Below, piece after piece: positions 2,290-46,747 of a stretch of DNA of 47,201 nt. Below the pieces are notes generated by a model. The model ran no database searches, was not told where the DNA came from, and saw nothing but the letters and a program-made list of their open reading frames with translations. Location of the stretch: positions 1 to 47,201 of IMG/VR virus record IMGVR_UViG_3300033571_002502. One strand, written 5' to 3'. Within the stretch, counting starts at the first letter, position 1. The number at the start of each line of letters is the position of its first letter. This stretch comes from a virus. The position numbers were made by a program, and so were the translations under genes.

Positions 2290-2622
2290 GTGGCAGTCAG
2301 CGGCGTAAATTACGTCCAAGGGCTGGATAGCGGTGAATACGACTTTACCCACGTGGTATCGACGGTCACCGCTTCCGGCTCTACGACTCTTTACTCGTGT
2401 CCCACGGGGCGCAGACTGCGCCTGCGGTGGATTTACGCACTGAACGACCCGGGTTCTACTGCTACGCCGCTGATTAAGGTTTTCCTTGGCGCAGAAGAGA
2501 AGTTTCGGGTGTACGCCGTAAGCAAGCGTCAGTTTGTCACGGGTCCGGTTAACGGTGATCTGATTATCGATCTGAGCGAAGCGGCATCTGTCGCCGTTAC
2601 CGCACTTTTGGAAGAGGTTTGA
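2290..2622 (+). CDS. Small beta-rich virion protein
   Basis: 110 residues, starting with GTG three bases after the previous stop. The sequence alternates short polar and hydrophobic segments (TASGSTTLYSCPTGRRLRLRW, KVFLGAEEKFRVYAVSKRQF), consistent with a beta-sandwich. A similar plan (TPSA-TTIYTVPAA, then V-x-N) occurs in the protein at 19960-20292, so the two may be distant relatives. A capsid-surface or connector role is inferred from context. Confidence 0.5.
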   Translation: MAVSGVNYVQGLDSGEYDFTHVVSTVTASGSTTLYSCPTGRRLRLRWIYALNDPGSTATPLIKVFLGAEEKFRVYAVSKRQFVTGPVNGDLIIDLSEAASVAVTALLEEV

Positions 2623-2623
2623 G

Positions 2624-3043
2624 ATGGCAGCTTATAATAAGTTTCAAGATTTCTCCGAGCAGTTGGTCAGGGGGACGCACAACTTCGCGTCCAACGTGTT
2701 CAAGGTTTATCTGACCAACGACACTCCTTCTGCGTCCGCTGATGCTGTGAAGGCCGACCTCGCGGAGATCTCCGCTGGAAACGGATATCCGGGTACGAAT
2801 ACAACCACAATCACGATCTCGGAAACCACGGGTACGACCACGGTCTCGGGTACTCAGGTCTCTTGGAACGCAACGGGTTCCGTCGGACCCTTCCGCTACG
2901 CCGTCCTCTACAACGACACCTCTGCGTCTGATAATCTGGTCGCGTGGTGGGACTACGGCAGTTCGGTCACTCTGGCTAACGGCGAGTCGTTCACGGTTAA
3001 ATTCTCTGGTACTGACCCGGGCGCGATCTTCACTCTGGCCTAA
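2624..3043 (+). CDS. Virion protein, copy 1 of a three-member paralogous family
   Basis: 139 residues, start one base after the previous stop, with GAGGTTTG upstream. It shares layout with 9479-9901 and 10784-11239: an N-terminal F-x-x-x-L-x-x-GTHNF motif, then F-K-V-Y-L, a V-S-W/G-Y-T middle, an A-V-L-Y-N-D/S-T segment and a C-terminal F-T-V-K/T-M/F strand. This type of protein is common in phages of aquatic bacteria. A virion surface or tail role is likely. No catalytic motif. Confidence 0.6.
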   Translation: MAAYNKFQDFSEQLVRGTHNFASNVFKVYLTNDTPSASADAVKADLAEISAGNGYPGTNTTTITISETTGTTTVSGTQVSWNATGSVGPFRYAVLYNDTSASDNLVAWWDYGSSVTLANGESFTVKFSGTDPGAIFTLA

Positions 3044-3055
3044 TCGAGGTGTTTT

Positions 3056-3535
3056 ATGGCGCTCACGCCAGAGCAGTATGTAATCCTTGGCGATTACATC
3101 GCGGCCACGCCCGCACTCAATAACATCCCCAATACTCCCGAAGGTGCGTATCAGATCGCTGAAATTCTGAACACGCCCAGTAATCCGGGGTGGAAAGCTA
3201 TTAGTGTCGGTTCCGCGATGTTGTGGGCTGCAAATGGGCCCCGGGTTCGTATCGGCCAAGCGGCTAATAATCCACAAGAACCAGAAGAAGTCCGAGCCTC
3301 CTGCCAGATCTTTCTCGACCTGATTGTCTCCGGTACTGAATCTCTGCTACATACTGAAGAACCCGGCATTAAAGACCTGTTTGACGACTGGCTGGCGGCA
3401 AGTGTTATTACACAAGCTGAATACGCGCAGGTCTATAGCGCTAATGGACTTGCCATGACGCTGATTCCGCAGTCAATTGAGTTGGTCGATCAGACGGTTG
3501 ATTGGCAGGAAGTGTATGACTCAAGGAATATGTGA
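3056..3535 (+). CDS. Conserved phage protein of unknown function
   Basis: 159 residues, ATG at 3056 after GAGGTG. It is mostly helical in character and acidic, with TPEQYVILGDYIAATPAL at the N-terminus and several conserved-looking Trp and Pro residues. Similar proteins are frequent between small capsid-region genes in environmental phages, without known function. Its stop TGA overlaps the next gene's ATG (TGATG), implying coupling. Confidence 0.55.
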   Translation: MALTPEQYVILGDYIAATPALNNIPNTPEGAYQIAEILNTPSNPGWKAISVGSAMLWAANGPRVRIGQAANNPQEPEEVRASCQIFLDLIVSGTESLLHTEEPGIKDLFDDWLAASVITQAEYAQVYSANGLAMTLIPQSIELVDQTVDWQEVYDSRNM

Positions 3536-35932: not shown

Positions 35933-35961
35933 AATCTACATCCGGCAGACTGCGACGTCAA
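35933..35961 (-). promoter_or_regulatory. Sigma70-like promoter for the helicase with long leader
   Basis: On the minus strand TTGACG (35961-35956), 17-base spacer, TAGATT (35938-35933). It overlaps the stop of the HNH gene and gives a leader of about 190 nt. The leader (35740-35925) has the 13-bp hairpin, a GGCTCT/AGAGCC stem around 35809-35842 and a GCCCCC/GGGGGC pairing, and no gene that I can support except a possible 18-codon frame. Confidence 0.6.
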
Positions 35962-36215
35962 CCGTTACGCTTCATCGAACTGTCCTTGTTGCGTGCAAAA
36001 GATCGATTCTTGGAAGGCTTGACCAGCCGCAGGTTGGATGGCGCGTTGGTACCACCCTTGGACAGTGCGACGACATGGTCGATGTCCTTACCCTTGCGGT
36101 CAACACCCTTCTTGTCCATCTCGCGACGGGCACGTTGCCGTTCCATACGGTTCTCATGCTCACCACGGGCGACCTGCTGTTGGTACTCTTTCTTGTACGG
36201 TCTGGGCTTAGCCAT
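35958..36215 (-). CDS. HNH endonuclease, small
   Basis: 85 residues from the ATG at 36215 overlapping the previous stop (TGATG). A basic helical N-terminus precedes DIDHVVALSKGGTNAPSNLRLV with D46-H47, N57 and N61, and N70, the HNH active-site order. No zinc Cys pairs. Possible homing enzyme or packaging-associated nuclease; the terminase is not in the window, so the latter cannot be judged. It sits in a cluster with an endonuclease VII and two small basic proteins. Confidence 0.85.
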   Translation of the reverse strand: MAKPRPYKKEYQQQVARGEHENRMERQRARREMDKKGVDRKGKDIDHVVALSKGGTNAPSNLRLVKPSKNRSFARNKDSSMKRNG

Positions 36216-36451
36216 CACCGGAACCCCGCTGTCTTCTTGGCAATACCTTTGGGTTGTGCGACGAACTGTTTGCCCTTGCGGTTACCCGCAGCCTTGGCAC
36301 GATTCGTTGCTGCTTTCTCTGCGGGACTCAGGGAGTTCCATGCGGCCTCAGGCAGGTAGCGTTTCTTGCCCTTGGACGGAGTACCGTCAGAAGTTTTCCA
36401 TTTCTGCGCAGTCCAATCTTTCAGCGACTGCTGCGGGTTCTTAGTCACCAT
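36215..36451 (-). CDS. DUF5872-like small basic protein
   Basis: 78 residues from the ATG at 36451, which has GGAG at eight bases; an ATG at 36457 is possible. The run LKDWTAQKWKTSDGTPSKG, KRYLPEAAWNSLSPAEKAATNRAK and KQFVAQPKGIAKKT is the pattern I know as DUF5872, found in phages and algal viruses. Strongly basic. Function unknown, perhaps DNA binding. It overlaps endonuclease VII upstream and HNH downstream. Confidence 0.75.
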   Translation of the reverse strand: MVTKNPQQSLKDWTAQKWKTSDGTPSKGKKRYLPEAAWNSLSPAEKAATNRAKAAGNRKGKQFVAQPKGIAKKTAGFR

Positions 36452-36899
36452 CGCCATAACTCCCAAACGCTTCAAGATATTCTATAGCGTTGCGTAGAAC
36501 GGTGGGACTATCGCTGAACATCCCGAGCGCACGGTTGCATTTCTTGCACAAAACGCCGCGAAATTCACCGGTGTTGTGGTTGTGGTCAATTGCGCTGTCC
36601 ATCAGGGGGATCTTAATCTTGCAGATCGCGCAACAACCTTTCTGCGTTTCATACCGGCTTACAAGCTGTTCGGGTGTGATGCCGTATCGTGCGCACCGCT
36701 TTGCCATTGTCCACGGATTTCTCGTCCGGTATTCGGCTATCCTGCTCGGATTACCCTCGACCCAGTCCCTGTGTTTTTTGTAGAGACAGGCCTTGCAGTA
36801 ACTTCTGTATAGATGCGGTGATGTACTGCCTCGCCTGCGGAATTTTGTTATAGGTTTTGTTTCACCGCAGCCGATACAAGTCTTTACAGACTCAGTCAC
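36441..36899 (-). CDS. Recombination endonuclease VII-like nuclease, second copy
   Basis: 152 residues from a GTG at 36899, chosen because the zinc motif starts eight residues later, as in the copy at 5954; an ATG at 36974 would lie deep inside the upstream gene. C8-I-G-C11 and C35-K-A-C38 bind zinc; C90-A-I-C93, D105-H-N-H108, C118-K-K-C121 and N122 form the catalytic region. Homology to 5954-6367 is clear only in the motifs, so the two were acquired separately. Likely a resolvase or homing nuclease. Confidence 0.85.
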   Translation of the reverse strand: MTESVKTCIGCGETKPITKFRRRGSTSPHLYRSYCKACLYKKHRDWVEGNPSRIAEYRTRNPWTMAKRCARYGITPEQLVSRYETQKGCCAICKIKIPLMDSAIDHNHNTGEFRGVLCKKCNRALGMFSDSPTVLRNAIEYLEAFGSYGDGD

Positions 36900-37071
36900 G
36901 ATACCCGCCGCCCTTGGCCTTGTACTGCTTGGCAAGAAGCTGCGCTTTGCGGGCCGACCACTCATTAGGGTCACCGCCCTTGGTGCCAGCCTTGATCTTG
37001 TTGAACAGTGCTTTGCGCATGCTGGGTTTCGTATAGTTACCCGCTGCGTTGACCTTAGATTTAGTCGCCAT
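36892..37071 (-). CDS. Small basic conserved phage protein
   Basis: 59 residues from ATG at 37071 (a second ATG at 37074 is the alternative). KSKVNAAGNYTKPSMRKALFNKIKAGTKGG and EWSARKAQLLAKQYKAKGGGYRD recur in small phage proteins next to nuclease genes. Nearly a third of the residues are Lys/Arg. Probably binds nucleic acid; no function is known. Confidence 0.7.
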   Translation of the reverse strand: MATKSKVNAAGNYTKPSMRKALFNKIKAGTKGGDPNEWSARKAQLLAKQYKAKGGGYRD

Positions 37072-37754
37072 CATCGACGTCCGTTATAGGAACACTCAAG
37101 GATAGAACAGTGTGCGCGGCACAGCCCGGAGGGTTTCGGGTTGAACACGCCGGTTTCCATCGACTTGCGGAGTCGGGCCAGTGTGTCAGAGAACTTCTCG
37201 GTGAAGCCAGTGAGTTCCCGACGATCATAATAAGACTGAACGAACGCTTTTGCAATGGTGAAGATCAGTCCTGCGCGAACGTGCTCGATCTCCGGAAACT
37301 TCTTGAACACGGCCAGAGCCATCAGTTCAAGCTGCCCAGTGTCCGCATACTTCGCGCTTTTACCGGTCTTATAGTCTATGACAAACGCCCGCTTACGTTC
37401 CCGGTCTAAGATGATCAGGTCAGCGATACCCCTGAAGTAGACGTTCGGATCGTTGAACTCGCAGGGGGAGAGATCTTCTTTGAGTCCGAGTTTGAACTCG
37501 CACAGCTTCTCGCCGGGGACTTCGCGCAGAATGTCGAGCACATCCTGCATATAAACAAACCCCTTGGGTAAAGGGGTGCCATCGCGGACATAGTTCTCTG
37601 CCGCCTCGTGGGCGGCAGTACCGTAAAGCATCGCCTCGGTTTCAGGCTCGGTGGTGTCTTTGAGAATGCGGAGGTGGTAATACTTCTTCGGGCAGTTCTC
37701 GTAAAGCTTAAGACTGCTGAAGCTCCACGTCAGTTTGGTAGGGGAGTCCGCCAT
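37071..37754 (-). CDS. PD-(D/E)XK nuclease, Cas4/RecB-like, likely with Fe-S cluster
   Basis: 227 residues. SFSSLKLYENCPKKYYH opens the domain with C21; H49 lies in YGTAAHEAAENYV; D112 in GIADLIILD; D127-Y-K129 in VIDYKTGK; Q141 in DTGQLELMAL. C212, C216 and C221 at the C-terminus pair with C21 as the four ligands of a Cas4/AddB-type iron-sulfur cluster. These are single-strand exonucleases or end-processing enzymes; in phages they take part in recombination-linked replication. It lies just after the polymerase and a small gene. Confidence 0.88.
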   Translation of the reverse strand: MADSPTKLTWSFSSLKLYENCPKKYYHLRILKDTTEPETEAMLYGTAAHEAAENYVRDGTPLPKGFVYMQDVLDILREVPGEKLCEFKLGLKEDLSPCEFNDPNVYFRGIADLIILDRERKRAFVIDYKTGKSAKYADTGQLELMALAVFKKFPEIEHVRAGLIFTIAKAFVQSYYDRRELTGFTEKFSDTLARLRKSMETGVFNPKPSGLCRAHCSILECSYNGRR

Positions 37755-37932
37755 TCTCTTTCACCAGTTCTACGTTCGCTTTCAGGAGTCTGATTTCTAC
37801 CACAGATTCAAGAAGGTTCCTACTCGCGGTATCCCAATCCCCTTCCAACATAGCCTGCTCGGTTCCGTGAACCAACTTCTTCAGCTTGAGGATTCCCTCG
37901 GCGTAATCTACAACCATCTCAACACTCTCCAT
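37708..37932 (-). CDS. Small helical protein between polymerase and nuclease
   Basis: 74 residues from ATG at 37932; a longer frame upstream is only the polymerase shadow. MESVEMVVDYAEGILKLKKLVHG and DWDTASRNLLESVVEIRLLKANVELVK form two amphipathic helices. It overlaps the polymerase end by 14 bases and the nuclease start by 47 bases. Accessory function to replication is possible. Confidence 0.6.
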   Translation of the reverse strand: MESVEMVVDYAEGILKLKKLVHGTEQAMLEGDWDTASRNLLESVVEIRLLKANVELVKENGGLPYQTDVELQQS

Positions 37933-40645
37933 AAGAGTAACCGACACCTGACTCGCAGGAGATCGGACAGCCTTCGGCCCACCTCGGGACGTGGCGCATT
38001 GTTTCTTCGACGAATGCCACCGCCTCATCTTTCTCTTCTTCAGGAACCACAACGGCAATAGCGTCGTGAACCGTCAGCACGGGTCGGTAGCGTTTGGATA
38101 TTAGCAGCATCTGATCCGAGATCACGCAACGGGCCAAACCCTGAACCGCGTTCTCCACAACTGTGCCATACCAGATCGGGGTCAGACCCTTGCGTCCCTT
38201 ATAGAAATACTGAATCTCTTCGCCCTTGCGTTGGAAATGCAGTCCGGGGTAGCGGATCTTGTACCCGTTGGGGAGGTAGAACCCGTCGGTGTCGTAAACG
38301 AAGCAGTCCCTCGTCCCAAAGTTGTACTCCCTCCCTGCGACCATCCGCTTGATAGCGGAGTCGACCTCATACCAAAGCTCGACGATCCGGTTGTTCTTGC
38401 GGCGGTAGACGTTGATAGTCTGCTTGCACTCATCCTCGGGAAGTTTCACTCCGCTCGCGTTCAGTTCGAACTGAAGCTTCTTCCACCCCGTGCCGTACCC
38501 GCAGTTGTGGACTACGATAGGCCCCGCGTCAGACAGGATCGTGAACCGATTCTTGGGTCCGGAGAAGGCTAGATCGTAAGTCGGCAAGTTCCTTCTCAAG
38601 TCTTTGAATCTTTGATTGTAGGTCAGAAACTTTTCGACGGTTTCGGACGTTATCGGCACGGGAGACAAATCGGATATTCCCGGGGAAGTACCCCTTGTCG
38701 TTGTCAATCCGGTCCATCTCATACTCAGCCCGATCCCACCCATCGAGGGTTTGGACATGCCGCAAAAACTCTCGCCGATCATTTTGCCAAGCTTCGCAAA
38801 CGTGTAGCCCCCGTCCACCGTAAGAGCGGTATGCGCGGTTCTTGGGGTTGTGGCAACGTGAAATGGCTGACGAAAGGCGGTTGAGAAGGCGTTCCCTGTG
38901 TGCATCGTCGGCCAAACTGTCGGCATAAACCCAATAGCTTTTTCTGTAAGTTTCATGAGACTTCGATAGAGCGCAAGGGTTGCACCTTGTACTTTTGAAA
39001 TCCTTGAAGTTGTGCTGGTCGACGGTATATTCGGGTCTACCGCAATCGCACTGTACGATGATTGCTCGAACCCCTCGGTTTTGCCCCGCGACATAGCCAG
39101 TGACGACCAGCTTTCCGCTCCGGTAGCCAATGTCTGGTAGAGGGTGTTTCCGTCGAGGTGCACTGATTGCGCGTCCTTCCATTCGTTCCCGCACAATACT
39201 TTGTGATCCGGAGTCAACCAAACACCGCAAAGATTCAGCGTTTCTTTGAAACCTTTCTTCAACAGACCCTGATGTTCTACCCAATTTTGGCCGTCCCATA
39301 CCTTGTCCTCCAGAGTAACGGTCTCTATGGGTTTCCAACCACTCTCACAGAGTACAAGAGTTCCTTCGGCTAAACAACCGAGAACTACTGTTTTTGACAG
39401 GGAACGCTCCGGCCCCGTGATGTCTTCAGGAGCCTTGTTGTAGATGGCCGCACCCATCAGCCGGTACACGTCCTGCTTGTTGGCAAAGGCTTCAATCACA
39501 TCCTCCTGACCAGCCAGCCACGCAAGGATCCGCGCTTCGATCTGCGAAGAGTCGCAGTCAATGATGACGTGTCCGGGCGGTGCCGTGATGGAGTTCTTCA
39601 GCGCCTTCTTCTTGGGGTTCCGGCTCGGTAAGTTTTGCAGGTTGATGGAATCTTTACCTCCCCACCGACCAGTATGGGCACCGCAATAGTTCAGGGGGAC
39701 GGGAAGCTTGAAGTCGTTACGTTCGGCAACGCCAAGGAACCGGTCGATCCTGCTCTCCTCGATGGTCGACTTGGTATCCAGACGTACTGAGCAGATCGTT
39801 GAGACGAAGTCATCTTCGCTCTCCGCGAGGTCGATGAACCCGGGATCCTTCTTTGCCAAAGCGTAAGTGTCTTTGCCAGTCGTCGCCGATACTTTCATCG
39901 GAACATTGACACCCCGACTCTCCAGTAATCCGGCGAACTTCTTGTTCGAGGCAAGGACGGCCCTGACTTCCTCGGTGCTCTCCACGCCAAACTCCTGCAT
40001 CAGACTTGAGAGGAGCCGATCCTTCTCTTCCACAACCTCCTGCTTACGCGCAGTCAGCACACCGCAGTCGATGTTCAGCGTGGGTTGTATATACATCCGC
40101 AGGGTCAGGTCGATGATGCGCAACTCTTTCGTAGGAAATCCGTTGGCGATCATGGCGCTGTAGATAGCGTAAGTAAGATCCACGTCGTTGACGCAGTACT
40201 CCGCGTACTTAGCGAGTTCCAATTTATTGAAGTCTCCGCGCCTTTTACCCATCGCGTTGACTACTTCATCGCCCTTCTCGCCCACCCCATACCGCTGCGC
40301 CATCGCAGCCAGACTCACCGAGTCGTGCACCCCGTGCATGAACCGCGCCATGCTCATCGTGTCCAGCCAACGCTTGGGGTTGATGCCGTAGCGCCACTGA
40401 AGGATCGCCCCATCGAACATGGTGTTGTGGCACAGGATGGCGGCACCGGAGAAATCGAATCCAGAAAGAAAGGACGCGACCTCTGCATCATCCCCGCTAA
40501 ACCACTCGGTCGGCTCGTCGTTCTTCTTGATTGCCAGACCGATCACCTCGAACTGTCCGTCGTTGACGTACTCCTCGGTCGTGGACTTAGTCAGGGAGTA
40601 GCCGGGGGCGTAGTAAGTCTCGAAATCGATTGCGTAGACATCCAT
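37919..40645 (-). CDS. Family A DNA polymerase with 3'-5' exonuclease, interrupted by an intein
   Basis: 908-residue precursor; 617 residues after splicing. Exonuclease: D7-F-E9, CHNTMFD and YCVNDVDLTY. Polymerase motif A IIDCDSSQIEARI; motif B R414-x3-K418-x3-L422, continuing after the intein as CGYG; motif C TVHDAIAVV. Residues 424-714 are the intein. Leu422 equals E. coli Phe762, and motif C has HDA instead of HDE. Known work on virioplankton links Leu762 polymerases to slower or temperate-like lifestyles. The first 55 bases overlap VRR-NUC. It is the replicative polymerase of the phage; the N-terminal 5'-nuclease domain of bacterial PolA is absent. Confidence 0.93.
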   Translation of the reverse strand: MDVYAIDFETYYAPGYSLTKSTTEEYVNDGQFEVIGLAIKKNDEPTEWFSGDDAEVASFLSGFDFSGAAILCHNTMFDGAILQWRYGINPKRWLDTMSMARFMHGVHDSVSLAAMAQRYGVGEKGDEVVNAMGKRRGDFNKLELAKYAEYCVNDVDLTYAIYSAMIANGFPTKELRIIDLTLRMYIQPTLNIDCGVLTARKQEVVEEKDRLLSSLMQEFGVESTEEVRAVLASNKKFAGLLESRGVNVPMKVSATTGKDTYALAKKDPGFIDLAESEDDFVSTICSVRLDTKSTIEESRIDRFLGVAERNDFKLPVPLNYCGAHTGRWGGKDSINLQNLPSRNPKKKALKNSITAPPGHVIIDCDSSQIEARILAWLAGQEDVIEAFANKQDVYRLMGAAIYNKAPEDITGPERSLSKTVVLGCLAEGTLVLCESGWKPIETVTLEDKVWDGQNWVEHQGLLKKGFKETLNLCGVWLTPDHKVLCGNEWKDAQSVHLDGNTLYQTLATGAESWSSLAMSRGKTEGFEQSSYSAIAVDPNIPSTSTTSRISKVQGATLALYRSLMKLTEKAIGFMPTVWPTMHTGNAFSTAFRQPFHVATTPRTAHTALTVDGGYTFAKLGKMIGESFCGMSKPSMGGIGLSMRWTGLTTTRGTSPGISDLSPVPITSETVEKFLTYNQRFKDLRRNLPTYDLAFSGPKNRFTILSDAGPIVVHNCGYGTGWKKLQFELNASGVKLPEDECKQTINVYRRKNNRIVELWYEVDSAIKRMVAGREYNFGTRDCFVYDTDGFYLPNGYKIRYPGLHFQRKGEEIQYFYKGRKGLTPIWYGTVVENAVQGLARCVISDQMLLISKRYRPVLTVHDAIAVVVPEEEKDEAVAFVEETMRHVPRWAEGCPISCESGVGYSYGEC
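38504..39376 (-). other. Intein in polymerase motif B
   Basis: 291 codons. Block A CLAEGTLVLCESG starts with the nucleophile Cys1; block B GVWLTPDHKVLC has T55-x-x-H58; block F/G YDLAFSGPKNRFTI...VVHN ends with His290-Asn291, and the downstream extein residue is Cys. All splicing residues are present, so it should splice itself out to restore L-G-C-G-Y-G. The middle (about residues 78-262) is Ser/Thr-rich with no endonuclease motifs in this frame; the endonuclease lies in the -1 frame. Confidence 0.92.
38529..39182 (-). CDS. Homing-type endonuclease nested out of frame inside the intein
   Basis: 217 residues from ATG at 39182, in the -1 frame of the polymerase-intein. C45-D-C47 and C67-N-P-C70 form a zinc-type N-terminal unit after KLVVTGYVAG. 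The catalytic region reads SAISRCHNPKNRAYRSYGGRGLHVCEAW, WDRAEYEMDRIDNDKGYFPGNIRFV and NRR, a widespread phage and bacterial homing-endonuclease family with DRIDN and NxR motifs (HNH-like). The C-terminus is a coiled-coil tail overlapping the intein's C-terminal splicing block. A weak GGGA lies before the ATG; GTG at 39194 is an alternative. The gene lies wholly within the intein. Confidence 0.85.
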   Translation of the reverse strand: MEGRAISAPRRKHPLPDIGYRSGKLVVTGYVAGQNRGVRAIIVQCDCGRPEYTVDQHNFKDFKSTRCNPCALSKSHETYRKSYWVYADSLADDAHRERLLNRLSSAISRCHNPKNRAYRSYGGRGLHVCEAWQNDRREFLRHVQTLDGWDRAEYEMDRIDNDKGYFPGNIRFVSRADNVRNRRKVSDLQSKIQRLEKELADLRSSLLRTQESVHDPV

Positions 40646-40911
40646 GTGCGCACATCCTCAATGTTGTGTTCGTTGATGACCAGCGCGGTGCCACCGCACT
40701 CCCTGATCTGCCGGATGTTCTTGTCTTGCAGTGCGGTCGTCGTGTTGCCACCGGCTTTGCATTCCACTGCGAAGAACCGACCATTGTAGCAGCAGACGAT
40801 GTCGGGGATCCCCGACATCCCGTACCCGCCCGTCACCGGATAGAAGTAGTACGCCCCGTACTCCTTGAGGATCTCCGTAACTTTCTTCTTTACTTTGGCC
40901 TCGGGGGTCAC
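40591..40911 (-). CDS. VRR-NUC domain nuclease
   Basis: 106 residues from GTG at 40911, overlapping the previous stop (GTGA). GIPDIVCCYNGRFFAVECKAGG carries P35-D36 type and E50-C-K52 active-site residues of the VRR-NUC branch of the PD-(D/E)XK superfamily. Such stand-alone nucleases in phages act on branched or Holliday-type DNA. The last 18 codons overlap the polymerase start in another frame. Confidence 0.9.
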   Translation of the reverse strand: MTPEAKVKKKVTEILKEYGAYYFYPVTGGYGMSGIPDIVCCYNGRFFAVECKAGGNTTTALQDKNIRQIRECGGTALVINEHNIEDVRTWMSTQSISRLTTPPATP

Positions 40912-41195
40912 TTCTTCTCCAGTTCCGAGATCAGCCGGTTGATGTACCACTGCGCCTTACGAACATCTTCCAGCCCGTTCTTGGACTCGTAGCGCCAGAG
41001 ATACTTAATAGCGTTCGCGGTGCAGACCGCCTCGATCCCGGTCTTGTTGATGGTCGCCGCCTTCAGTGCGTCGATGCACTCGATCTCGCCTTGGCGGTAG
41101 TGCCCGGGGTTGGTGGGCGAGACGGGCACATCGCTCTGACGGTTAAACTGGGACTCGATGATGTCCTTGAGCGTCGTTTCTTTCATGGTAGTCAT
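40908..41195 (-). CDS. DUF3310 protein
   Basis: 95 residues. HYRQGEIECIDALKAA, then ANAIKYLWRYESKNGLEDVRKAQWYINRL, is the DUF3310 signature found in many phages, often near polymerase and nucleotide-metabolism genes. Function is not established. ATG overlaps the previous stop. Confidence 0.9.
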   Translation of the reverse strand: MTTMKETTLKDIIESQFNRQSDVPVSPTNPGHYRQGEIECIDALKAATINKTGIEAVCTANAIKYLWRYESKNGLEDVRKAQWYINRLISELEKK

Positions 41196-41821
41196 CCCTG
41201 CAAGTCCTTGAAGATTTCCTGAAGCTTCTTGAGTCGAATGCTGTCCTTGTTGATCTTCTCGATCTGCTCCTCGACCTCGATGGCCGCTGCGTCGATGTCC
41301 GCCGCCAGCTTGTGCAGGCTCTGGATGATGGTGATCACCTGAGAAGAAAGCTCCCCAATCCGGTCGAGCGCGGTTTCGGTAGTTTTCTCGGTGACGGCGT
41401 CTGTCTTCTTCGTATCGCTAGTCGGCATGGTGATTTCCTCGGCTTTGGTTTCTACATCTTCAATGGATTCAGCGGGCTCACAAACTTTAGCCCGGACAGT
41501 TACCCTAGACCACATTCCCGTACTTGACTCTTTGATGAGACCAGCGTTCTTGAGAGCGTTCAGGCAAAACAGAACCGAGCGGTGATCATTCTTACTCGGA
41601 CTAACACGAACGATCTCCGCAATGATCTGCGACACACTCCACTTCGCTTGGATCGGTACGGCTTGGTAAACCCTCTTCGATTGGTCGTTGAGTCCCTTGT
41701 ACAGGGAATTAAATCGTGCCTCATTCATCGGCTGCTCCTGCTCCTTTTGGGTTGCTTTCATCCCGTCATAGAAACCTTTCCCATAGACTCGATTAAGTTT
41801 CTGTCTGATCGATTCATCCAT
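41192..41821 (-). CDS. Winged-helix protein with C-terminal coiled coil
   Basis: 209 residues from ATG at 41821, chosen for AGGAAAG at six bases. Residues about 50-105 (VYQAVPIQAKWSVSQIIAEIV, DHRSVLFCLNALKNAGLIKE) look like a winged helix; residues 130-209 are a coiled coil (LSSQVITIIQSLHKLAADIDAAAIEVEEQIEKI). Possible DNA-binding regulator or replication accessory. Not assigned to a named family. Confidence 0.65.
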   Translation of the reverse strand: MDESIRQKLNRVYGKGFYDGMKATQKEQEQPMNEARFNSLYKGLNDQSKRVYQAVPIQAKWSVSQIIAEIVRVSPSKNDHRSVLFCLNALKNAGLIKESSTGMWSRVTVRAKVCEPAESIEDVETKAEEITMPTSDTKKTDAVTEKTTETALDRIGELSSQVITIIQSLHKLAADIDAAAIEVEEQIEKINKDSIRLKKLQEIFKDLQG

Positions 41822-45535: not shown

Positions 45536-46747
45536 TTACTTGTTGATGACCCGGCCATTGCCCGGGGCTTTGAAATCTTCTCTACCGTCGATGACCCACA
45601 GTGTGGGGGTGCTGACTTGCCAGCGAATGTCACGCTCCACATAGCCATCAGTGAACATGATCAGCGCGTCGAACCTGTAGCCCTTGTCCTTGATGTAGTC
45701 CGACACACAGCCAGCCCGGGTACCGCCACCACCAGCGACTTTGAACGTGTCGGATATGCGGGACATATCACCTTCGATCACTTGCTCACGCTCCACGTCG
45801 GTGTCCCAGAACATTATGCGAACGCGAGAGGGGGACACAGATTTACACATCGCGATAGTTTCTGCAAGGAACTCACTGAGCATCGTTTCAGAAACTGAAG
45901 CAGATGTATCAATCCCGATGCCGATCTCTCCAGCAGACTCGTCCTCGGTGGTGGGCAGGTAAACCCCAAGGTCGACGTAGCGTCGGTTGTACATACGCCA
46001 CGAGGAATCATCCTTGCCTGAGGTCTGCTCGATCAGGTAGTCACGCATCACGTCGCGCCAGTCGATCTTGGGATACAGCGCAGCGGTGATCTGCTCACTA
46101 AGTTTGCCCTTGGCCTTACCCACCATAATGCTGCCCTCACGCAGGGCTTGATCAATCTGCTCGGACAGAGCCTTGTCCTCCTCGGGGGTGCGGTCACCTG
46201 CACCGGAGTGGTCATGGTCATCCAGTGTGCCGCCGTCGCCGTCGTCTCCTCCGTTGCCGTTGCCCTCCTCGTCCTCTTCTTCGAGAAGTTTGTACACGGC
46301 GAGCACGTCGAGCTTTGCCCACTCCTTCTTGTACAGGCCACCCTCGGGCATACGGGCAAACGCACCCGTCGGATCAGTGTCGATGATCCAGCCGTTAACG
46401 ACATAGTCCATTGCCCGGTTTGCGCGTCGAGGATTCTTCTCGACCAACTGCTTCCACATAGACAGATGAGAGAACGCCTTGTGTCCGTTCTCGTGCAGCA
46501 CCAAGAAGTTGACCTCCTGCTCGGTGAGGGGCTGCACAAACTTCTTGCCATACCACACCGACTCGCCGTCGGTGCAGGCCGTGCGGGTGCTGTCGTCGCA
46601 GATCACCTTGCCGATCATGACGATGCCAGCCAGCAGACAGAAGTCGGGGTGACGCATGACCTGAGCATGGGACCGAGTGACACGGTCATTGACCGACAGA
46701 CCGACGTAGGTGGAGGTGGGCAGGGTGGTGGGGATGTTGGTAGTCAT
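45536..46747 (-). CDS. HExxH/VWA-like protein (DUF2201/CobT-type), partner of MoxR ATPase
   Basis: 403 residues. H85-E-N-G-H89 in a DUF2201-type metallopeptidase-like N-terminal domain; an acidic low-complexity linker (about 155-192, EEEDEEGNGNGGDDGDGG); then a VWA-like C-terminal domain with MIDAS motif D280-T-S-A-S284. In bacteria such proteins work with MoxR-type ATPases that use ATP to assemble or load metal or cofactors, or to remodel partners. The C-terminal half of such an ATPase is encoded immediately upstream. Phage examples exist but substrates are unknown. AAGGAGTGCACC is the ribosome binding site. Confidence 0.87.
   Translation of the reverse strand: MTTNIPTTLPTSTYVGLSVNDRVTRSHAQVMRHPDFCLLAGIVMIGKVICDDSTRTACTDGESVWYGKKFVQPLTEQEVNFLVLHENGHKAFSHLSMWKQLVEKNPRRANRAMDYVVNGWIIDTDPTGAFARMPEGGLYKKEWAKLDVLAVYKLLEEEDEEGNGNGGDDGDGGTLDDHDHSGAGDRTPEEDKALSEQIDQALREGSIMVGKAKGKLSEQITAALYPKIDWRDVMRDYLIEQTSGKDDSSWRMYNRRYVDLGVYLPTTEDESAGEIGIGIDTSASVSETMLSEFLAETIAMCKSVSPSRVRIMFWDTDVEREQVIEGDMSRISDTFKVAGGGGTRAGCVSDYIKDKGYRFDALIMFTDGYVERDIRWQVSTPTLWVIDGREDFKAPGNGRVINK

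Follow-up and report, generated by a model that had tools for sequence, protein, structure and literature searches.

Dual coding of a polymerase intein and a predicted HNH homing endonuclease in phage genomes

In textbook inteins the homing endonuclease shares the reading frame of the precursor and is one domain of the protein that splices. The IMG/VR virus record IMGVR_UViG_3300033571_002502, whose 47,201 bases were analysed as a whole and are referred to here as the window, raises the question of whether splicing and mobility can be written in different frames of the same DNA. Its family A DNA polymerase gene is interrupted by an intein, and a second open frame across this intein carries the motifs of an HNH homing endonuclease. 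We consider it very probable that the element is a mobile intein and that its homing endonuclease is encoded separately, by a gene which overlaps it out of frame and has a start of its own. The compared sequences by themselves show dual coding, two regimes of selection, an insertion site that is sporadically occupied, replacement of one allele by another and one fractured derivative. The coordinates of the features, all of them on the minus strand, are collected in Table 1.

Two proteins in one stretch of the polymerase gene

A sequence-only reading of the window had delimited a complete intein in the polymerase frame (C1, T55xxH58, H290-N291 and +1 Cys), and both its limits and its motifs were confirmed. 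The insertion point lies in the conserved polymerase motif KTVVLG^CGYG (^ marks the point of insertion). The polymerase frame is continuous, so that the host gene is not divided into two open reading frames (ORFs), and no endonuclease was found in the frame of the intein itself. In the second frame no stop intervenes between 39344 and the stop codon at 38531-38529, and the third is full of stops. For this second frame, the motifs and the displacement given in the sequence-only reading were correct (GNIRF and NRR are present in addition to those in Table 1), but the start proposed at 39182 covers the conserved part only. The likelier start is the ATG at 39299, which gives a protein of 256 amino acids. 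This protein matches the HNH endonuclease family phrog_374 (4.6e-33), and also phrog_2081 and phrog_3377; searches of Pfam and NCBIfam gave no match to an HNH family, PHROGs alone having matched.

The two open frames are more than would be expected by chance. When the HNH protein was kept fixed and synonymous codons were redrawn from the codon usage of the polymerase, the intein frame stayed open in 0.85% of the trials for the window, and the host frame in a median of 0.05% over 65 loci. In the reverse case, with the intein protein fixed, the HNH frame was open in 0/2,000 trials for the window and the median over loci was 0%. Structure prediction gave two complementary models. AlphaFold was run on 61-row alignments without GenBank-derived rows, and in the intein-frame model the predicted local distance difference test score (pLDDT) was about 91-98 for residues 1-90 and 261-291, the first 90 residues reaching 96-98, and most of the stretch from about 110 to 250 scored below 50. 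In Foldseek this model matched mini-inteins with a probability of 1.00, and its two terminal parts are confidently predicted to form a HINT fold. The model of the HNH frame reached a mean pLDDT of 88.1 and matched phage HNH endonucleases in BFVD. The stretch between the splicing blocks, described earlier as a Ser/Thr-rich passenger frame, is disordered in AlphaFold, and nearly all of its conservation is explained by the HNH frame.

The same arrangement recurs in many phages, as was seen when the locus was compared with homologous polymerases, a check proposed in the sequence-only reading. A tblastn search with the intein frame found 192 phage records, 164 of them at >=80% cover, with about 27-35% identity over the full intein. 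They were mostly Salmonella phages of the Jerseyvirus kind, together with Sodalis SO-1, Shigella EP23, Pseudomonas MR14, Vibrio 97.13 and EBPR siphovirus 2. Searching with the HNH frame led to the same places at about 45-48% identity, and within the same homologues the HNH frame was 47% identical vs 30% for the intein frame. In all IMG/VR relatives (80/80, with L014 and L085 counted as nested) the HNH occupies the host +2 frame, the host's own frame runs open through it and the remaining frame is closed. Among the 114 distinct HNH cores from all fetched loci, the host frame was open in the +2 relation in 111, two were contig-edge cases and one was fractured, so that about 113/114 are nested. 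None was in frame with its intein. An HNH always in frame among homologues, one of the outcomes named as refuting the idea of a nested gene, did not occur. Genome contigs of bacterial assemblies provided eight further +2 nested cases. Residues C1, T55, H58, H290 and N291 of the intein were invariant in 61 aligned rows, as were CxC...CxxC and DR in the HNH homologues. The +1 residue was C or S at every listed insertion site, the search pattern having demanded H[NQ] followed by C/S/T.

The group to which the window belongs is called type I here. Two other nested families use the other frame. In type II (Hamiltonella phage APSE-1, Shewanella SFCi1, Caulobacter RW and relatives) the intein occupies a second polymerase site and in type III (Streptococcus phages) it occupies the first, with the HNH in host +1 in both. 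Additional +1 cases similar to types II and III were found in Bacillota, a spirochaete and an actinomycete assembly. Free-standing HNH relatives had no second open frame across them (absent in 71/71). Therefore, codon use in this HNH family does not explain why the host frame is open.

Selection in both frames could be followed by codon position. In 120 ungapped type I pairs, host position 3 evolved fastest in the codon windows up to codon 75, the HNH wobble position (host 2) in those that span codons 61-255, and host 3 once more in the remaining windows. For types II and III the fastest position in the middle was host 1, again the HNH wobble of that frame; three type III rows had been trimmed at the wrong point, which affects the last codon windows of that type. 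Amino-acid selection in the HNH frame holds in close and distant pairs, and the codon-position pattern is that of purifying selection. In the core, host-frame identity was 0.258, and the HNH constraint predicts 0.245. Strong over-conservation was seen in the host columns of about codons 78-92, part of the splicing domain. The excess of intein-frame conservation in the core is small and is larger only in close pairs, where shared ancestry may explain it. The two frames thus take turns, with the splicing domain at both ends and the endonuclease in the middle.

Mobility, origin and a fractured derivative

Occupancy of the insertion site is sporadic. With respect to the C-extein, 79 of the 80 nearest polymerases are uninterrupted (L192 having been judged by eye) and one has a nested intein. 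The closest C-extein homologue found, L192 (63% identity), is uninterrupted at the insertion site of the window. The cultured Jerseyviruses S103 and TUMS_E4 are without exactly the 897-nucleotide insert, the identity of the flanks over 1,600 nucleotides being 94.1 and 88.2%, respectively, and in this comparison identity falls to 0.72 in the 50 nucleotides upstream of the insertion site. In addition, loci L013 and L075 are identical across the 600 nucleotides compared on each side, outside about -130 to +760 of the intein. The stretch in which they differ holds different nested inteins, with an HNH identity of 48%. We read this as a recent allele replacement, in which about 130 nucleotides of upstream extein were converted and both frames were swapped together. 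Taken at sequence level, these comparisons indicate mobility of the nested inteins, and the sporadic occupancy and converted flanks speak indirectly for cutting of the empty site and transfer by repair.

Types I, II and III each form a group in the HNH tree, and a single clade of all nested HNHs was rejected (approximately unbiased test, p-AU 0.0014). Therefore, nesting arose at least twice. Free-standing HNH relatives fall between the nested groups, which fits the entry of free-standing HNH genes into inteins. Invasion of a mini-intein by such a gene, one of the two origins suggested in the sequence-only reading, is thus compatible with the tree, its direction being unproven. The other suggestion, an intermediate on the way to a fractured gene, held with respect to the link between the two states but not with respect to a rare transitional state, as the architecture is stable and widespread: it is found in three or more HNH groups, in two frames and at two main sites of the polymerase.

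The link is provided by locus L345, which lies within the type I clade. Its passenger stretch has seven in-frame stops. The N-part of the polymerase ends in an N-intein (ORF 1206-2831), the HNH ORF has no interruption (2678-3451), and the C-intein is carried by a C-ORF that begins at ATG 3354 behind AAAGGA. L345 appears to be a fractured gene derived from the nested state by in-frame stops and a new start for the C-half. Given that the polymerase frame of the passenger stretch is constrained by little beyond stop avoidance, gain of a start for the C-half can split the gene. A scan with the L345 HNH returned L345 itself and one further relative, L364, and no second fractured copy is known.

Other arrangements were observed among the loci. 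In L013 (1531-5243) the polymerase gene that carries the nested intein also contains, at another site (HTGR^), a split intein of the fractured kind: an N-intein ORF (1531-2844) and a C-intein ORF beginning at 3258, both overlapped by an HNH ORF (2531-3478). Therefore, nested and fractured inteins coexist in one gene. At a similar site of L053 (1061-5495), split intein halves surround an ORF (2332-3249) that by eye is GIY-YIG nuclease-like. In L010 and L071 (Salmonella phage SS3e) the annotation divides the polymerase into two genes on either side of the HNH, and the N-ORF stops very early in the intein, which looks like an indel or a sequencing error rather than a true fractured gene. Type I inteins occupy three adjacent points of one polymerase motif, offset by a few codons (GKx^C, GKVA^C and GKxxxLG/A^C). 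In L026 (4888-6944) and L027 a further intein of about 309 amino acids lies in a neighbouring gene, probably a helicase (VQMGKLLQIS^C...HN^CGSVY). Finally, polymerase I of Escherichia phage PGN829.1 (L190, 1723-5145) is in two coding sequences (CDSs) around a non-nested HNH-like ORF, perhaps owing to a group I intron.

Probable translation of the nested gene and competing explanations

The HNH protein may be translated and no longer take part in homing, being domesticated or dying, with the locus kept as a splicing intein and a leftover overlapping gene. Homing cycles include inactive stages, and several loci combine an interrupted HNH with an intact intein frame. We regard this explanation as improbable in view of the HNH-frame selection across close and distant pairs, the sporadic occupancy and the recent allele replacement.

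How the HNH protein would be produced is a related matter. The ATG at 39299 follows GGAGG and has the strongest anti-Shine-Dalgarno free energy (dG, -9.3 kcal/mol) of the candidate starts examined. Read in the HNH frame, the Trp codons of the intein motif W-D-G-x-x-W-V give rise to NTG triplets at +77 and +92, and ATG was found more often than expected from host codon usage at both (24 vs 6.7 and 40 vs 18.0, respectively). In the close relatives of the window ATG was also enriched at +98 (16 vs 3.7 expected). A start at +194 was considered and rejected: NTG is present there in 62/81 loci, yet a conserved Trp codon accounts for this, and ATG scarcely exceeds its expectation (15 vs 11.8). Internal initiation is favoured by these sequence features. 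Synthesis of the HNH as a fusion to the N-part of the polymerase by programmed ribosomal frameshifting would suit the -1 frame of type I, in which viral frameshifting is common. Nevertheless, a -1 slippery heptamer occurs in 2/65 loci, the window not being one of them, and +1 shifting would be needed in families II and III. The ATG enrichment at specific positions and the strong Shine-Dalgarno sequence of the window also speak against this route, which we hold to be quite unlikely.

A group I intron with an HNH ORF is the interpretation found in the GenBank record of SO-1, and HNH ORFs are indeed common in phage introns. It has very little probability here: Rfam gave no match at E<=5 in 37000-41200 of the window, the frame is open through the element in more than 100 homologues, and the invariant C1, TxxH, HN and +1 C/S together with the HINT fold are those of an intein. 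An HNH that is truly in frame, as in canonical inteins, and was displaced by compensating sequencing indels is scarcely conceivable, given the same displacement in 80/80 independently assembled homologues and in cultured phages, with none in frame, and a different displacement in two other families; such errors cannot account for more than 100 independent sequences. Long overlapping ORFs do occur and Pfam and NCBIfam are without an HNH match, but the idea that the second frame arose by chance, or exists in annotation only, over an ordinary intein is practically dismissed by the PHROG match, the better conservation of the HNH frame, the codon-position switch and the redraws in which that frame was never open.

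Several points weigh against our interpretation and must be considered. The HNH tree was built on 125 columns only, the figures of ATG enrichment ignore phylogeny, and the L013/L075 comparison and L345 rest on metagenome assemblies. Shine-Dalgarno strength before +92 and +98 is high, yet no better than the codons of the intein themselves would give, and a test for a general gain in it found none. Searches of the PDB by sequence and with Foldseek gave no confident match to the nested HNH. Its core has DR vs DH in many HNH enzymes and, given this core, the catalytic competence of the predicted nuclease is unproven. Moreover, in L025 and a few other loci the HNH frame is interrupted and the intein frame intact. 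Therefore, not every copy is active.

The core of the sequence-only reading, an HNH gene that lies out of frame within a mini-intein able to splice and has a start of its own, is nonetheless supported by the codon-position switch, the ATG enrichment, the complementary structure models and the fixed frame relation in homologues. On this basis we infer internal initiation, protein splicing, DNA cleavage and homing, in the following way. Translation in the polymerase frame would run across the entire element, ~92 residues at the start of the intein and ~31 at its end would fold into the HINT domain and cut the element out, and the middle ~160 residues would be a disordered passenger loop. Ribosomes would also start at an internal ATG supplied by the W-D-G-x-x-W-V codons (ATG 39299 in the window) and release a free HNH endonuclease, which would cut intein-free polymerase alleles near the insertion site, repair then copying the intein in. 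On this explanation the architecture is old, with at least two entries of HNH genes into polymerase inteins, in two frames, and can decay to a fractured gene.

Table 1. Positions of the polymerase gene, its intein and the nested gene in the window
Feature	Position	Strand	Evidence or remark
Family A DNA polymerase CDS, intein-interrupted, 908 amino acid precursor	37919..40645	-	Pfam DNA_pol_A 3.4e-29; phrog_17 DNA polymerase 5.2e-87
N-extein of DNA polymerase	39377..40645	-	
C-extein of DNA polymerase	37922..38503	-	
Intein, polymerase frame, 291 amino acids	38504..39376	-	C1, T55-x-x-H58, H290-N291, +1 Cys
N-terminal splicing half, intein codons 1-92	39101..39376	-	Confident HINT fold; selection in polymerase frame
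C-terminal splicing half, intein codons 261-291	38504..38596	-	pLDDT 91-98; fastest position host 3
Intein-frame passenger stretch, codons about 93-250, Ser/Thr-rich, disordered	38627..39100	-	pLDDT mostly below 50
Nested, predicted HNH homing-endonuclease gene, 256 amino acids, host +2 (= -1) frame	38529..39299	-	ATG 39299, stop TGA 38531-38529
Shine-Dalgarno GGAGG within intein coding sequence, 7 nucleotides ahead of nested start	39307..39311	-	dG -9.3 kcal/mol
Zinc-binding-like unit of HNH protein, C84-x-C86 ... C106-x-x-C109	38973..39050	-	Invariant in 61 homologues
YGGRG motif, HNH residues 160-164	38808..38822	-	Sequence
DRIDN motif, HNH residues 196-200	38700..38714	-	D196 and R197 invariant

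Elsewhere in the window, and also on the minus strand, there are an endonuclease VII-like gene (36441-36974; phrog_2633, 1.1e-35), a small HNH-like protein of 86 amino acids (35958-36218) and an HNH family protein (45536-46747; phrog_1314, 2e-74).

Known systems and significance

Our literature search on nested or out-of-frame endonucleases in inteins turned up the work on the ShiLan domain alone, and an earlier report may exist. ShiLan is an out-of-frame HNH in actinobacteriophage methylases, without intein splicing motifs or a HINT fold, and is believed to remain part of the protein (PMC11855218; Arsenault, Gosselin and Gogarten, 2025). It resembles the element of the window in having an out-of-frame HNH in a read-through insertion, a patchy, homing-like distribution and zinc-finger-like units. 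It differs in that it has no splicing domain, whereas the host frame of the window is a complete intein with a conserved one, and in its methylase host gene and GTG start at 18 bp, compared with a polymerase gene and an ATG in the W-D-G motif. In its endonuclease the element of the window works as ShiLan does, and its host frame is that of a genuine intein.

With canonical inteins such as PI-SceI and PI-MtuI the element shares the splicing blocks, the HINT fold, an endonuclease between the blocks and sporadic occupancy; in those the endonuclease is an in-frame domain of the precursor, whereas here it lies in another frame and would be a separate protein. Fractured genes, at least as they are outlined in PMC10448857 (citing Dassa et al., 2009), consist of split inteins with a separate endonuclease gene. 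They are alike in the separate endonuclease gene between the intein halves and unlike in that the halves in the window still form one continuous ORF, L345 being the fractured derivative within the same HNH clade. The GenBank records of Sodalis phage SO-1 (gp38/gp39, type I) and Hamiltonella phage APSE-1 (P45/P46, type II) list an HNH CDS overlapping the polymerase CDS. The former calls the element a 'type I self-splicing intron', and the Ent1 record lists an intein without an endonuclease. In the papers searched, no passage that points out the dual coding was found. The nested gene is easily missed in annotation, as in Ent1 and in many Jerseyvirus records.

In addition, the locus is a clean case of overlapping genes in which the frames alternate and selection can be read by codon position, and the existence of closely related cultured phages with and without the intein makes homing directly testable. 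In our opinion it is fairly likely that dual-coded inteins are a general mobile class of phage polymerases, with at least two HNH entries into existing inteins, in two frames and at two main polymerase sites, the W-D-G-x-x-W-V start, selection split by codon position and a role as a source of split inteins and fractured genes, as in L345. For such phages, splicing and mobility would be the task of two overlapping genes on one DNA stretch, unlike in textbook inteins, and the dose of endonuclease could depend on its own start instead of on the polymerase. The origin of split inteins in fractured genes would likewise gain a concrete route, of the kind that L345 appears to have followed.

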